From Melioribacter roseus (GTDB lineage Bacteria; Bacteroidota; Ignavibacteria; Ignavibacteriales; Melioribacteraceae): a stretch of 52,024 nucleotides of DNA. The stretch covers positions 4,551 to 56,574 of the forward strand of contig DYSW01000009.1 of the NCBI GenBank assembly GCA_020726285.1. Reading direction: 5' to 3'. The notes beneath the pieces were generated by a model. That model did not search any database, was not told the DNA's origin, and was given only the letters and a program-made list of their open reading frames with translations. The position numbers and the translations under genes were made by a program. Position 1 is the stretch's first letter, and each line of letters begins with the position of its first letter. This document shows, one piece after another, positions 42,908-48,544 of the stretch.

Positions 42908-44779
42908 TTGAATGATAAAAGTAAAACCCGAGCTTTAGTTTTTATAGTTTTTTTGGTGATTTCTATTCCAATATTCCTAACAAATAACTTTATTGTTGAA
43001 TTAATTTTGGTTACACTTCAATTAATTTACGTAGGTTTAACTATTTATCTTCGTGATACCTTTCATTCTGACCCGTCTTTTCGAAAAACTAAAGAAAATC
43101 TCGACAAATTATCTAAAACTCCGATAGAAAAAACTAATATTCAAACTCCATTTAATGGTGATTATAGCGATGAAGGATTTGCTTTAGTTGATAAAAATAA
43201 AAAAGTAGAAGTTTCTGAACCAGATATAAATTCCTATCAGAATGGAAAGATGGTTGATGTTAGTGTAAAAACTCATGAAGAATATGTAAAGGTAATTAGC
43301 AAAAGATTTAATCATGACGGAAATAAAGATCAAGAATTTAAGTTAGTTTTAGAAAGATTTCTGCAAGTTGTAAAAGAAAGCCTCGGAGTTTATTCTGCCA
43401 CATTTTTTGTATATAATCATCAAGCAAAAAAGATAATATTAAAAGATTACTATCCCAAAACAGTTGATATTTATCCAATAAAATTTGAATTGGGAAATGA
43501 TATTGTAAGTAAAATTGTAAAGGAAAAATCGCCAAAATTTCTTCTAAATATTACTCAAGTTGTTGAAGCCGATAATATTGTTTATTATAAAAATCCACAA
43601 GGAATTAAAAGTTTTTGTGGTGTTCCTTTTGAATTTGATGACGGAAGTATTTTTATTCTTGCTGTGGATTCCAAAAATGAAGACCAATTTGGGAATGAAT
43701 CAATTGTAAATATGGGAAGGTTTATTCATTTAATTTATTACTTTATTCATATGTTTAATGAATATAACAATGAAACGAATCTTGAGAAAAAAGTAACAGA
43801 ATTAAGCAAAATGGTTTCTCACACGCCAAGTATTTCAAACTATGAGAATGTTAAAAAATACGTTGGAACAAGTTTGAAAGGACTTCTTAATTGGAATATG
43901 ATAACACTTTCTTTAGTTGATCAACAAACAGGGCTGGTAAAAACTGTTTTTATTGATTCGAATAAAGATACTTTAAAATATATCGGCGAAAATTTAGAAC
44001 TTTCGACAAAATCAATTGCAGGAACTGTGCTTATTAATAAAAAGGAAATTTACATAACCGACCTTTCTACTGAAAAAAGATTCAGATTTCGGGAAGGAGA
44101 AGATATTCAATTGAACGGAAGTTTTGTTGCAATTCCATTAGTTTATGAAAATTCGATTTTTGGTGTTGTTACTTACGAATCACTTGAAAAAAATAATTAC
44201 ACAGAAAACGAAATTGAATTCGCAAAAAGTTCCACTAAAATATTATCATTTATGTTGAATGTCTATTTCGTTATCGATTATCTTAAAGAAAGAACAACTC
44301 TTGATTATGAAACACTATTCCTAAATAAAAATGAATTTGCTCGTCAGGTAGAAAATGCTTTTGCCCGAGATAAATACTCAAATATTGTTGGTGCAATAGC
44401 ATTAATTAAGGTAGATAGTTTACACGAAAATTCCCTTTTTGAATCAAGTACTTTGCCTGTAGTTTCGCAAGTACTTACTATAATGCTTAAAAATTCTACA
44501 AAACCGCTTACTCTTATTGGCAGAATAGATAGCAAATTATTTGCAATTTATTCATTTAATTCATCAAGTAGCGAAATGTTAATTTGGGCTGATCAGCTTC
44601 GAAGCAATGTTGCAACTTACGATTTTCCACTAGAATCGGCTCTGAAAAATCAGACAATTTCTGTTGGAATTGCTTCTAATATAAATTATGTAGAATTTGA
44701 ACAAGTTTACAAAATAGCTGAATTGGCATTAGAAAAAGCTTATACTGAAGGCGGAAATAAAGTTGTGAGAGCAAACTAA
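42908..44779 (+). CDS. Membrane GAF-GAF protein with degenerate GGDEF domain
   Basis: A 623-aa putative signalling protein. Two N-terminal helices (about residues 9-25 and 29-48) anchor it. Two GAF-like domains follow: residues about 140-280 (ESLGVYSATFFVYNHQAKK to FCGVPFEFDDGSIFILAVD) and about 305-455 (GTSLKGLLNWNMITLSLVDQ to SFVAIPLVYENSIFGVV). The C-terminal 150 residues look like a diguanylate cyclase: TISVGIAS and AELALEKAYTEGGNKVV are typical. However, the GGDEF position reads DSKLF (541-545), so cyclase activity should be lost. It probably acts as a sensor or binding partner. TTG start at 42908; the stop overlaps deoB by 1 nt. Confidence 0.75.
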   Translation: MNDKSKTRALVFIVFLVISIPIFLTNNFIVELILVTLQLIYVGLTIYLRDTFHSDPSFRKTKENLDKLSKTPIEKTNIQTPFNGDYSDEGFALVDKNKKVEVSEPDINSYQNGKMVDVSVKTHEEYVKVISKRFNHDGNKDQEFKLVLERFLQVVKESLGVYSATFFVYNHQAKKIILKDYYPKTVDIYPIKFELGNDIVSKIVKEKSPKFLLNITQVVEADNIVYYKNPQGIKSFCGVPFEFDDGSIFILAVDSKNEDQFGNESIVNMGRFIHLIYYFIHMFNEYNNETNLEKKVTELSKMVSHTPSISNYENVKKYVGTSLKGLLNWNMITLSLVDQQTGLVKTVFIDSNKDTLKYIGENLELSTKSIAGTVLINKKEIYITDLSTEKRFRFREGEDIQLNGSFVAIPLVYENSIFGVVTYESLEKNNYTENEIEFAKSSTKILSFMLNVYFVIDYLKERTTLDYETLFLNKNEFARQVENAFARDKYSNIVGAIALIKVDSLHENSLFESSTLPVVSQVLTIMLKNSTKPLTLIGRIDSKLFAIYSFNSSSSEMLIWADQLRSNVATYDFPLESALKNQTISVGIASNINYVEFEQVYKIAELALEKAYTEGGNKVVRAN

Positions 44780-45942
44780 TGAATAATTTTGTAGTAATAA
44801 TTTTAGATGGTGTTGGAATCGGAGAAACTCCCGATTCTTATAAATATTCTGATCAAGGAAGTAACACACTTTCGAATATGGCAGATATTATTGGTGGATT
44901 AAATTTACCAAATCTTGAAAAAATGGGTCTCGGAAATATTCACCCAATAAAAGGAATTCAACCAGTAGAAAAACCACTTGCTTCATACGGTAAATTGCAA
45001 GAAACTGCAGTTGGTAAAGATTCAACTTCGGGTCATTGGGAAATTGGTGGATTAAATGTTGATATGGATTTTGCTTATTATCCAAACGGTTTTCCAAAAG
45101 AAATAATTGATGAATTCATTGAAATAACCGGAGTTGGCGGAGTTTTGGGTAATAAACCTGCTTCTGGAACCGAAATAATTGCAGAACTTGGCGATGAACA
45201 CGTACGGACTAAATTTCCAATTGTTTATACATCGGCAGATTCAGTTTTCCAAATAGCAGCACACGAAGATGTAATTCCACTTGGAATGTTGTACGAAATT
45301 TGTGTTATTGCACGAAATGAAATCTTTGTTGGAAAAGATTCTGTTGGTCGAGTAATTGCCCGTCCTTTTGTCGGAACTTCTGGAAATTATACTCGCACAA
45401 CAAACCGACGCGATTTTTCTCTTTTTCCACCAAAAGACACAATTCTTGATTACGTTCAAAAAGAAGGTTTGGAAACAATTGCTATTGGAAAAATCAATGA
45501 TTTATTTGCACATCGTGGAATAACTTTAGGTATAAAAACAAAATCCAATCTCGAAGGAATTGAACAGATTCTAAAATACACAGCAAAAAAACAAAATAGT
45601 TTCATCTTTGCAAATTTAGTTGATTTTGATGTTTATTATGGACATAGAAACGACCCAGTTGGTTTTGCTAAAGCACTTGAAGAATTTGATGGCTATTTGC
45701 CAAAAATTTTGGAAAATCTCGATGAAACTGATGCTTTCATTATTACAGCAGATCATGGAAACGACCCAACAACACCAAGTACAGATCATTCCCGCGAATT
45801 TGTTCCGATTTTATTTTACCGAAAAGGAAAAAATGGAATTAATTTGGGAACTCGACAAACTTTTGCAGATGTTGCACAAACAATCGCACATTTTTATAAA
45901 ATAAACAATGATTTGAATGGAATTAGCTTTCTTTATGGATAA
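44779..45942 (+). CDS. deoB: Phosphopentomutase DeoB
   Basis: Interconverts (deoxy)ribose 1-phosphate and (deoxy)ribose 5-phosphate in nucleoside catabolism; alkaline phosphatase fold with two metals, usually Mn. The 387-aa protein has the N-terminal metal site ILDGVGIGETPDS (Asp10), the nucleophile region GKDSTSGHWEIGG with Ser84 just before GHWE, and the C-terminal metal cluster ITADHGNDPTTPSTDHSR (about residues 327-344). Full length. ATG 44779 overlaps the GAF gene stop (TAATG). The downstream genes start within its last 8 nt. No deoC, deoA or deoD is in this window. Confidence 0.95.
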   Translation: MNNFVVIILDGVGIGETPDSYKYSDQGSNTLSNMADIIGGLNLPNLEKMGLGNIHPIKGIQPVEKPLASYGKLQETAVGKDSTSGHWEIGGLNVDMDFAYYPNGFPKEIIDEFIEITGVGGVLGNKPASGTEIIAELGDEHVRTKFPIVYTSADSVFQIAAHEDVIPLGMLYEICVIARNEIFVGKDSVGRVIARPFVGTSGNYTRTTNRRDFSLFPPKDTILDYVQKEGLETIAIGKINDLFAHRGITLGIKTKSNLEGIEQILKYTAKKQNSFIFANLVDFDVYYGHRNDPVGFAKALEEFDGYLPKILENLDETDAFIITADHGNDPTTPSTDHSREFVPILFYRKGKNGINLGTRQTFADVAQTIAHFYKINNDLNGISFLYG

Positions 45943-46063
45943 GAAAAACATTAACGAACTTGCCAAAAAAATTGCCGAAGTTCAAAAAATTCCATTTGAA
46001 GTTGCTTTGAAATTAATTGAAGCAAAAAGCAAAATAAAGAATAATAAATTTGAAGAAAATTGA
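45935..46063 (+). CDS. 42-aa ORF between deoB and PIN-like gene
   Basis: A short lysine-rich ORF. ATG 45935 lies inside the end of deoB (8-nt overlap) and its TGA lies inside the start of the PIN-like gene (14-nt overlap), the spacing expected of a translated, coupled gene. It encodes two predicted amphipathic helices (NINELAKKIAEVQK and PFEVALKLIEAKSKI). By position it could be an antitoxin for the PIN-like protein. Alternatively, its amphipathic helices recall short shell-targeting peptides of microcompartment cargo. No family is recognised, so both readings are inference. Confidence 0.5.
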   Translation: MDKKNINELAKKIAEVQKIPFEVALKLIEAKSKIKNNKFEEN

Positions 46064-46439
46064 ATTTTTAGTTGAAACCGAAATTTTAGTAAATCATCTA
46101 ACATGGCGATTTGGTGGACTTTCGGACTTAGAAAAAGCACTTATAAAAGGTGAAGTTTACACAACAGTTTTGAATTCGGCAGAATTAATATCTCTTATGA
46201 ATTCAGAAATAGATAAAAAATTAGCAATTGATGTTTTATCAGGAATTCATGTTCTTGGATTACCAGCAAGATATTCGTTACAAGTTAGCGAGTTTTTTGA
46301 TAAAACCAAAAGTATAAATGATTCTATGTTTTGTGTAACAGCTAACTTAAATAAATTACCTATTCTAACTAAAAATCCGCAAAAATACACAAATTGCAAT
46401 GTTGAAGTAATTTCAACAGATGAATTGGAGAAGTTATGA
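46050..46439 (+). CDS. PIN-domain-like protein (VapC-like)
   Basis: A 129-aa protein whose pattern fits a PIN ribonuclease. There is an N-terminal strand EFLVETEILVNHL, where Glu9 stands in for the usual first Asp. Glu45 lies in TVLNSAELISLM, Asp91 in INDSMFCVTANL, and PILTKNPQKY is a late TxN-type motif. Most acidic positions are kept, so RNase activity is possible but the Asp-to-Glu change makes it uncertain. TTG start at 46050 overlaps the 42-aa ORF by 14 nt; its stop overlaps the first BMC-P gene (ATGA). Confidence 0.6.
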   Translation: MKKIEFLVETEILVNHLTWRFGGLSDLEKALIKGEVYTTVLNSAELISLMNSEIDKKLAIDVLSGIHVLGLPARYSLQVSEFFDKTKSINDSMFCVTANLNKLPILTKNPQKYTNCNVEVISTDELEKL

Positions 46440-46735
46440 TACTCGGAAAAGTTATCGGAACAATTTGGTCAACTAGAAAAGACGAAAGTCTTGTTGGTTC
46501 AAAATTTTTAATTGTAAGAGAAATAAAATTAGATTATTCTATAAAAGAAGCTTTTCACGTTGCAATCGATTCAGTTGGTGCTGGCGTTGGCGAAGTTGTA
46601 TTAATTGCTCAAGGTAGTTCGGCTAGACAGACAAAATTCACTAAAAATAAACCAGTAGATTCAGTAATTATGGCAATTGTAGATAAACTTGATATTGCTG
46701 TAAAAGATGAATTATTGAAACAAGTAGTTGCATAA
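46436..46735 (+). CDS. BMC vertex (pentamer) protein, EutN/CcmL family
   Basis: A 99-aa BMC-P protein; such proteins form pentamers that cap the vertices of bacterial microcompartments. Motifs: GKVIGTIWSTRKDESLVGSK at the start (residues 4-23), the pentamer-loop signature GAGVGEVVL (48-56), SSARQ (61-65) and PVDSVIMAIVD (73-83). GGAG at 46427-46430 supports ATG 46436, which overlaps the PIN gene stop by 4 nt. No BMC-H/BMC-T shell genes or cargo operon are present in the window. Confidence 0.9.
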   Translation: MILGKVIGTIWSTRKDESLVGSKFLIVREIKLDYSIKEAFHVAIDSVGAGVGEVVLIAQGSSARQTKFTKNKPVDSVIMAIVDKLDIAVKDELLKQVVA

Positions 46736-47020
46736 ATGCGATTTGGACAAGTAATCGGAACAATTTGGGCAACCAAAAAGTATGAAACATTGCAAAGTTA
46801 CAAAATGCAGTTATTGCAACCGTTAGATTTTACGTACCAAAAAATTGGAGATCCAATAATTGCTATTGATACAATTGGGGCAGGACCGGAAGAATTTGTT
46901 ATTTATGCAACTTCCAGCGAAGCAGTAATTCCAATGAAAGTTGACCACGCACCGGTTGATGCCGCAATCGTTGGAATAGTTGATAGTGTTAATCTTGAAA
47001 TAAAAGGAGATGTGAATTGA
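46736..47020 (+). CDS. Second BMC vertex protein, EutN/CcmL family
   Basis: A 94-aa paralogue of the preceding gene, starting at the base after its stop. Motifs: [20 protein letters not shown] (residues 4-23), [10 protein letters not shown] (48-57) where the usual GAGVGE has become GAGPEE, and [11 protein letters not shown] (73-83). The two proteins clearly arose by duplication but have diverged in the pore-side loop and in the SSARQ region (here SSEAVIPM), so they may form different pentamers or a mixed one. Its stop overlaps the rpoD start (TTGA). Confidence 0.9.
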
Positions 47021-47871
47021 AAATTACAAAGCAATTTACAAACAGGGAAAGTCAGTCGCTTGATAAATATTTACAAGAAATTGGAAAAGTTGACTTACTT
47101 TCACCTAACCAAGAAATTGAATTAGCGATTGAAATAAAAAAGAACAATCAGCACGCATTAGAAAGACTTGTCAAAGCTAATTTACGATTTGTAGTTAGTG
47201 TGGCAAAACAATATCAGAATCAAGGATTATCACTTGGCGATTTGATAAATGAAGGAAATCTTGGCTTAATAAAAGCCGCAAAAAGATTTGACGAAACTCG
47301 CGGATTTAAATTTATTTCCTATGCAGTCTGGTGGATTCGGCAGTCAATTTTGCAAGCACTCGCAGAACAATCAAGAATTGTCCGTTTACCTTTGAACAGA
47401 GTTGGAGCCCTAAATAAAATTGGAAAAGCATATAGTAATCTTGAACAAGAATACGAACGCGAACCAAGTGCTCAGGAATTAGCAAAAGAATTAGATATGG
47501 ATGTAAATGAAGTTGCTGATACTTTAAAAATTTCTGGTCGCCATGTTTCAATGGATGCTCCGTTTCAACAAGGGGAAGATAACAGATTACTTGACGTTTT
47601 GGTAAACGAGCATCAACCTGCACCAGACCACAAGTTAATGGAAGATTCACTAAAAGATGAAATTGATAGAGCTTTATCAACATTAACAGAAAGAGAAGGT
47701 GAAGTTATCAAATTGTATTTTGGTTTAAATTCCGAACATTCGCTTACTCTTGAAGAAATTGGTGAAAAATTTAATTTAACACGTGAAAGAGTTCGCCAAA
47801 TAAAGGAAAAAGCAATTAGAAGGTTACGACACGCTTCGCGTAGTAAGAACTTAAGAGCATATTTGGGCTAA
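47017..47871 (+). CDS. rpoD: Primary RNA polymerase sigma factor (short RpoD/SigA type)
   Basis: Group 1 sigma factor, 284 aa, lacking region 1.1 as in Bacteroidota/Chlorobi primary sigmas. Region 1.2 is at about residues 14-30 ([17 protein letters not shown]), regions 2.1-2.4 at about 45-115 ([37 protein letters not shown]), then region 3. Region 4.2 is at about 244-270 with [20 protein letters not shown]. The TTG start at 47017 lies in the stop region of the second BMC-P gene (4-nt overlap), so translation is probably coupled to it. Confidence 0.95.
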
Positions 47872-47872
47872 T

Positions 47873-48544
47873 TTGAAACTAAAAATTGTAATATTATTTT
47901 TGTTGGGAACATCCTTAAATATTTTTACTTCAGGATGTTCAGCAACAAGCAAAATAGAGCGATATAAACAAAAAGAGATTGAAATCCAACAATTGGATAC
48001 AAATGTAGTTCGTTTTACTGCCCAAGAAGATACAACATCCCATAAGTTTGAACCGGAAGAGCAACCTGAATTTGATGAAATTCCCAGTGAAGATATTAAA
48101 ATTGATGAACAAAAATTTGCTGAGGAATTTGCTAATCTTGAGCAATCAAACATTCCACACTCTACAAAAGAAGAAATTCTACTTGAAATTATTAAATATT
48201 TGAAAACTCCTTATAAGTATGGAGGCAAATCAACCGCTGGAATGGATTGTTCGGGATTTACATCGAGTGTTTATATGAATTCCATAAATTTGGCTTTACC
48301 ACGTACAGCTCGTGAACAATTTCAAATTGGCGAAAAAATTGTAAAAGATTCTTTATTGTTTGGTGATTTAGTCTTTTTTAACACTTCTCGAAAAGTAAAA
48401 CCAGGCCATGTGGGAATTTATATTGGAGATAACAAATTTGCACATGCAAGCAGAACAAACGGAGTTGGGATCACTTCACTTGAAGAAAAATACTACAAAA
48501 AACGATATATGGGAGCAAAAAGAATTAATCAATTTGAAGATTAA
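47873..48544 (+). CDS. NlpC/P60 family lipoprotein, putative cell-wall endopeptidase
   Basis: A 223-aa envelope protein. A signal peptide with lipobox FTSGC (Cys22) indicates a lipoprotein. A low-complexity acidic linker (about residues 40-95) leads to an NlpC/P60 domain with catalytic Cys126 (GGKSTAGMDCSGFTSSVYM), His179 (KPGHVGIYIGD) and a third polar residue probably near His191 (FAHASRTNG). It likely cuts peptide stems of peptidoglycan at the periplasmic face. The TTG start at 47873 is 1 nt after the rpoD stop, making it the last gene of the coupled string. Confidence 0.88.
   Translation: MKLKIVILFLLGTSLNIFTSGCSATSKIERYKQKEIEIQQLDTNVVRFTAQEDTTSHKFEPEEQPEFDEIPSEDIKIDEQKFAEEFANLEQSNIPHSTKEEILLEIIKYLKTPYKYGGKSTAGMDCSGFTSSVYMNSINLALPRTAREQFQIGEKIVKDSLLFGDLVFFNTSRKVKPGHVGIYIGDNKFAHASRTNGVGITSLEEKYYKKRYMGAKRINQFED

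Follow-up and report, generated by a model that had tools for sequence, protein, structure and literature searches.

The window analyzed here, a 52,024-nucleotide stretch of a genome assigned to Melioribacter roseus, contains two adjacent forward-strand genes, denoted P1 (46436..46735, 99 amino acids) and P2 (46736..47020, 94 amino acids), that encode BMC-P vertex proteins of the EutN/CcmL family (PF03319). In the set of open reading frames (ORFs) of the window, the first base of P2 directly follows the stop codon of P1. Both proteins align with the entire profile (positions 1-83 of 83) and score above the curated cut-off of 25 bits (P1: E-value 5.4e-30, 104 bits; P2: E-value 1.3e-25, 90 bits), in full agreement with the original prediction of two neighboring BMC-P genes at this site; both genes are intact. 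Among the proteins of solved structure, the EutN/CcmL family member 4i7a is the best match for P2 (E-value 3.6e-12). P1 is 75% and 91% identical to its counterparts in two genomes of the same genus (G263 and G009, respectively). Comparison with the nearest relative among the named genomes (L057) shows that both genes evolve under purifying selection, with Nei-Gojobori dN and dS values of 0.043 and 0.249 for P1, and 0.005 and 0.164 for P2.

The second copy had been singled out because it carries GAGPEE in place of GAGVGE, which was taken as a sign of functional divergence. The spelling of the motif is as described, but the divergence does not follow: in P2 of the best 80 of 285 named relatives, GAG/GSG is followed by proline in 59 (PG in 58 and PE in one) and by a different residue in 13, with 8 unparsed (the count includes one locus, L087, where a single ORF was taken as both P1 and P2). 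Thus, proline at this position is a common mark of the P2 paralog, and GAGPEE is not supported as a functional mark; the PE form is local, being found here and in L057.

Upstream of the pair are the genes for a GAF/GGDEF protein (42908-44779) and the phosphopentomutase DeoB (44779..45942, forward strand), which scores 521 bits against the NCBIfam phosphopentomutase model (cut-off 256) and 479 bits against TIGR01696 (cut-off 341), followed by a PIN-domain ORF of 129 amino acids (46050..46439, forward strand; PF01850, E-value 3.3e-7), the stop of which overlaps the start of P1; we regard this ORF as a context gene outside the organelle proposed below. On the other side, the P2 stop is overlapped by the start of a forward-strand gene for a sigma-70 family sigma factor (47017..47871, 284 amino acids, Sigma-70 regions 1.2, 2, 3 and 4). 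This sigma factor, for which the top NCBIfam model is RpoD (296 bits, under the cut-off of 555 for that model), is probably co-transcribed with P1-P2; it is followed by an NlpC/P60-like ORF (47873-48544, named by reading). Further upstream, reading of the sequences identified an EngB-type GTPase and the rpoA end of the ribosomal gene cluster. Thus, the pair indeed adjoins a sigma-70 family gene downstream of that cluster, in the housekeeping setting that was originally attributed to it. A promoter scan was uninformative (19 sites versus 17.5 expected), and no terminator-like sites were found where 2.3 were expected.

To compare this neighborhood across related bacteria, named genomes were scanned with the P1 alignment and the best 80 of 285 relatives were kept, so that these loci are P1-selected and, in the neighbor counts, some are cut by contig ends. 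The titles of the 80 relatives read Melioribacter, Melioribacteraceae, Stygiobacter, Ignavibacteria, or broader groups (Bacteroidetes, Chlorobiota, Chlorobiaceae), and the top-scoring one, 91% identical, is labelled Melioribacter roseus. The conservation of the pair, which the original prediction proposed to check, is evident: among these best 80 of 285, P2 is present in all 80 loci and a P1 ORF in 78; of the other neighbors, DeoB precedes the pair in 77 loci, and the sigma factor gene, the NlpC/P60-like ORF, the GAF/GGDEF gene and the PIN-domain ORF occur in 74, 73, 69 and 39, respectively. In the same set of loci, the median gap between P1 and P2 is -1 base (60 bases or less in 69 of the 79 measured), and that between P2 and the sigma factor gene is 12 bases (60 or less in 68 of the 73 measured).

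The original prediction described the pair as orphaned, with the hexamers encoded elsewhere (a satellite locus) or else with the pentamers repurposed. The PF00936 search of the genome bears out the lack of BMC-H and BMC-T genes near the pair and extends it to the entire 56.6-kb contig (C37). However, the pair is not an orphan: the genome (2.06 Mb, 140 contigs) contains 4 PF00936 domain matches, all on contigs C79 and C117, and 3 PF03319 genes, so that the shell genes are spread over C37, C69, C79 and C117. Specifically, C79 carries two tandem BMC-H genes (H1-H2), C117 carries a gene for a PduT-like BMC-T protein with two BMC domains, directly downstream of a PduS-like gene, and C69 carries a third BMC-P gene (P3) just upstream of dprA (named by reading). 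The expectation that the hexamers are encoded elsewhere is therefore borne out, but the pair is not a satellite in the usual sense because neither the PF00936 nor the PF03319 search of this genome revealed a locus that combines BMC-H with BMC-P. The contexts of these other shell genes recur as well: H1-H2 are preceded by relA/spoT and ruvX (named by reading) in four of the four loci compared (this genome, L228, L231 and L235), and the P3-dprA neighborhood was also found, by reading, in a distant genome (G200).

H2 has a long, acidic C-terminal tail with a conserved end (L008 10365-11201 on C79; also in L228, L231 and L235). The end segment, [LM]NVxxLRxxAR...FPIKGR[DE]ISKANR, recalls by eye SAP or Rho_N-like motifs; no Pfam domain scored over its cut-off in the tails of these four proteins.

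Vertex and hexamer genes go together in other genomes of the class, too. In a sample of 294 class genomes, none of which were dropped (the named relatives, too, are mostly Ignavibacteria), PF03319 matches were detected in 119 genomes, PF00936 matches in 124, and both in 118, hereinafter denoted shell-positive. Six genomes contain PF00936 alone, and at least three PF03319 matches were found in 106 of the 119 PF03319-bearing genomes. The 124 include two genomes (G105 and G107) with PF00936 matches near an E-value of 6e-4; one or two weaker PF00936 matches were obtained in G222, G280, G130 and G165. That the pentamers have been recruited for a role that does not involve hexamers, as could be suggested by the position of the pair alone within a housekeeping gene cluster, seems extremely unlikely given that this genome also encodes BMC-T, two BMC-H proteins and a third BMC-P, and that PF03319 occurs without PF00936 in a single genome of the 119. 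That genome, G258, encodes BMC-P along with two of the candidate cargo features discussed below (AldDH and the RpiB extension) and was counted as shell-negative.

Scattered shells of this kind have been described. The FRAG ('fragmented') BMCs, with Ignavibacteriae among the hosts and the function left open, were defined in a survey of BMC types (Sutter 2021, PMC8217296, in the part of the text available). As in FRAG systems, so far as they are characterized there, the shell genes in our genome are at several sites with no main locus, include a BMC-P triplet and are mostly remote from known enzyme genes; by this dispersal and the triplet, the shell distribution appears to fit the FRAG type. For Melioribacter roseus, an earlier survey reported seven BMC-P genes distributed among five loci, four of which are satellite or satellite-like (Axen 2014, PMC4207490, in the accessible part).

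The genes for the enzymes that we consider candidate cargo are all on one other contig, C140, which contains neither PF00936 nor PF03319 matches. These are deoxyribose-phosphate aldolase-type DeoC (C140:68855, PF01791) and RpiB (C140:37736, PF02502), both over the respective cut-offs, and an aldehyde dehydrogenase (AldDH). In DeoC, about 65 residues precede the aldolase core: residues from about 66 to 288 match solved aldolases, whereas the first 57 residues yield no match at an E-value of 0.001. Residues 4-448 of AldDH match the acetylating acetaldehyde dehydrogenase 5j78, and the score of the protein against TIGR02518 (acetaldehyde dehydrogenase, acetylating) equals the cut-off of that model; about 80 residues extend beyond the core, with a helix-like segment at the end. 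The N-terminal extension of RpiB shows a weak similarity to TIGR02536 (ethanolamine utilization; E-value 5.4e-7, 29 bits against a cut-off of 153). Several other enzymes of this genome were considered and set aside, namely, four further Aldedh matches (by reading alone), an aldolase on C85 with a strong PF01791 match, read as fructose-bisphosphate aldolase-like, and, as a signature enzyme, a class II aldolase encoded 3.7 kb from P3 on the opposite strand, where DeoC fits better.

Across the class, the distribution of all three candidates tracks that of the shell. DeoC with the extension was found in 105 of the 118 shell-positive genomes versus 4 of the 176 others, AldDH (at least 50% identity) in 108 versus 1, and RpiB with the extension in 101 versus 2; 96 shell-positive genomes combine all three features. 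For each of the three, the association with the shell is significant at p <1e-56 by Fisher's test, which ignores kinship, although within families f1, f2, f3 and f5 shell-positive genomes stand next to genomes that lack the pair, this AldDH and the DeoC extension. The DeoC extension was defined as an alignment starting at query residue 41 or earlier, and DeoC matches weaker than those listed were counted as non-extended. Fragmentary AldDH matches (G242, G267 and G292) were scored as present, and RpiB was scored as present in G015, where it is at a contig edge, and as absent in G242. G085 was scored as shell-positive with AldDH present and the DeoC and RpiB extensions absent; its own extensions of these proteins differ.

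Direct reading identified DeoC without the extension in five genomes without BMC-P (G222, G280, G173, G266 and G165) as well as in two genomes with another BMC type (G119 and G251). Among the shell-negative genomes scored with an extended DeoC, inspection of the sequences showed that the N-terminus is shortened in G192, G212 and G264, whereas G139 (78% complete) carries the full DeoC extension together with the RpiB extension. Eight shell-positive genomes (G065, G096, G119, G174, G208, G246, G251 and G255) lack all three cargo proteins, and seven of these encode an AldDH of 26-29% identity on a contig with BMC-P or other shell genes; we take these eight, post hoc, to carry a BMC of another type. 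In addition, G035 (79% complete) and G045 (68%) combine the shell and an extended DeoC with no AldDH match of this kind, and G114 and G287 combine the shell and AldDH with no DeoC match.

Shuffling tests for an amphipathic helix, as expected at the end of an encapsulation peptide joined by a linker, gave mixed results: the DeoC extension failed with a single sequence (964/2000 shuffles) and with 29 sequences at 100 degrees (19534/20000), and passed only with 80-120 degrees allowed (6/5000), and the values for the AldDH tail were 112/2000 and 671/20000; the case for cargo is not rested on these statistics. The DeoC extension contains, at approximately residues 20-35, conserved cysteines in the motif FYCxxxTCxGWERN (L023 6646-7512), and distant DeoC relatives have a cysteine-rich stretch at the same place, perhaps a metal site. 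The DeoC match in G093 (L160) is interrupted by an in-frame TAA stop, due to either gene decay or a sequence error.

A compact relative of the dispersed system was identified in G085, a genome of the same class, where a locus of about 6.3 kb (L227 8077-14391) encompasses genes for RpiB, DeoC, BMC-P, AldDH, BMC-H and two further BMC-P proteins, with other genes interspersed. RpiB of this locus has a short N-terminal extension, the N-terminal extension of DeoC can be aligned to its counterpart in the dispersed type, and AldDH has a C-terminal helix-like tail, too. The identity to the proteins of our genome is 82% for H1, 55% for P1 and for DeoC, 50% for AldDH, 39% for P2 and 32% for P3. This SPU-like locus connects DeoC, RpiB and AldDH with the same kind of shell. 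Other sampled members of the same genus (g46) mostly lack BMC genes.

Taken at face value, a dispersed FRAG-type BMC could also act on another substrate, with a different enzyme as the source of the aldehyde and another role, for example, in oligomer contacts, for the extensions of DeoC and RpiB. Such a system would be in line with the placement of FRAG1-7 among the types with no obvious signature enzyme in the available text of the survey (Sutter 2021, PMC8217296), with the preservation, in the DeoC extension, of more than a targeting helix, namely, the cysteines and the conserved GWERN segment, and with the class II aldolase near P3. Nevertheless, we consider it unlikely because the presence of the DeoC and RpiB extensions tracks that of the shell, the G085 locus unites the homologous DeoC, RpiB and AldDH with shell genes, and AldDH is an acetaldehyde-type dehydrogenase, in line with the product of DeoC.

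The scattering of the genes is evident in genomes assembled as one contig. In G113 (single contig of 3.74 Mb), the positions are 2.423 Mb for the pair, 2.320 for BMC-H, 2.302 for DeoC, 2.045 for BMC-T, 1.741 for RpiB and 0.866 Mb for AldDH; the pair, BMC-H and BMC-T are at least 100 kb apart, and the same is the case in G180 and G183, where the parts are spread across megabases. Thus, the scattering is no assembly artefact. Some parts are nevertheless loosely linked, as follows from the short distances between BMC-H and DeoC (about 18 kb in G113 and about 10 kb in G153 and G195) and from the location of AldDH within 10 kb of the pair in L116, L131 and G169. Besides the dispersed type, G153 contains a second, different BMC locus (L238 2180-6817), which encodes several BMC-P and BMC-H proteins, a class II aldolase and an AldDH of 28% identity.

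Dispersal of this kind might be expected if a formerly compact locus had disintegrated into remnants that are heading for loss; the existence of the compact relative in G085 would accord with such decay, as would the patchiness within the order, where several genomes lack the pair, AldDH and the DeoC extension. Decay seems highly unlikely, though, given the strong purifying selection on P1 and P2, the preservation of gene order across the 80 loci (best 80 of 285) and the retention of three or more vertex genes in most of the PF03319-bearing genomes.

We therefore favor, as the likely explanation, that P1 and P2 are two of the three vertex proteins of a dispersed, SPU-like organelle for deoxyribose-5-phosphate, with DeoC, AldDH and RpiB as cargo. 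The products of the dispersed genes, P1-P2, P3, H1-H2 and the PduT-like BMC-T beside a PduS-like flavo-iron-sulphur protein, would assemble into one shell. Nucleosides from DNA would be converted to deoxyribose-1-phosphate and, by DeoB, to deoxyribose-5-phosphate, which is the substrate of DeoC; inside the shell, DeoC would cleave it to glyceraldehyde-3-phosphate and acetaldehyde, and the trapped acetaldehyde would be oxidized to acetyl-CoA by AldDH. DeoB, encoded upstream of the pair, may thus be functionally linked to the shell, although this proximity might be no more than a frozen gene order. PduS and PduT are the model for NADH re-oxidation at the shell, and, by this analogy, the PduS-like/PduT-like pair, where present, could re-oxidize the NADH produced by AldDH.

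The BMC-T protein matches, in the order of decreasing similarity, the solved structures 3nwg, 3pac and then others, including the PduT chains 3n79 and 3vcd, and it resembles PduT of the propanediol BMC in this respect and in adjoining a PduS-like protein with Complex1_51K, SLBB, RnfC_N and 4Fe-4S domains; unlike PduT proper, it scores 124 bits against the PduT model, under the cut-off of 250. The two genes are adjacent in all 30 best-scoring loci. BMC-T (at least 57% identity) was found in 75 of the 118 shell-positive genomes (a hand count of the matches listed, including three by fragments and G119, which has another BMC type), and therefore, electron transfer through BMC-T cannot be general. 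A PP2C/SpoIIE-type phosphatase gene (by reading) precedes the PduS-like and BMC-T genes in this genome (L009 7066-8289) and in G113 (L237 8934-10169). The nucleoside genes cdd and tdk are next to BMC-T in 2 of the 30 best-scoring loci, and this unconserved association was dropped as general support.

The SPU loci combine DeoC, RpiB and AldDH, and DNA catabolism has been proposed as their role; PduL is present in all SPU loci described in 2014 except for those of Marinimicrobia (Axen 2014, PMC4207490, in the accessible text). Our system shares with these loci, as described there, the signature enzymes DeoC and RpiB and AldDH, and the DeoC extension can be aligned to its counterpart in the SPU-like locus of G085. 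It differs in the absence of a common locus, in the presence of the PduT-like BMC-T with its PduS-like partner and in the lack of PduL (PF06130), which was not detected in this genome, the one searched, with E. coli as a positive control; because of this, CoA recycling is unaccounted for in the proposed pathway. Since DeoC, RpiB and AldDH are encoded apart from the shell genes, we do not classify the system as an SPU locus and propose an organelle that works like an SPU metabolosome and is FRAG in form. The HO BMC of Haliangium also has a BMC-P triplet, and some HO genomes carry a remote DeoC-family gene with an EP-like N-terminal extension, but that type, in contrast to ours, has a main shell-gene locus (Sutter 2021, PMC8217296, as far as the available text goes).

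For FRAG systems, the available part of the same survey names neither a signature enzyme nor a function, whereas here an extended DeoC, an acetylating AldDH and RpiB are proposed. Because the scattered shell is already known, the cargo proposal for the class is the new part; in the accessible portion of the open-licence literature, we found no prior assignment of DeoC, AldDH and RpiB to the FRAG BMC of this class. Enzymes with terminal extensions that come and go with the shell, rather than gene neighbors, yield a specific, testable cargo set.

It is tempting to speculate, tentatively and with considerable doubt, that this is a housekeeping organelle and not an inducible one, made during all growth to deal with the acetaldehyde released by deoxyribonucleotide salvage or DNA turnover, given that the shell genes are fixed among core growth genes (the sigma factor and the ribosomal-rpoA cluster, relA/spoT-ruvX, and dprA). 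If this is the case, the FRAG BMCs of the class would acquire a defined function and their scattering would have a reason. The group includes a cultured bacterium, Melioribacter roseus. In a metaproteome, a protein named EutM from a Melioribacteraceae genome has been detected and interpreted as evidence of ethanolamine use (PMC12583861, in the part of the text available); if that EutM is an ortholog of H1, this interpretation may need revision.
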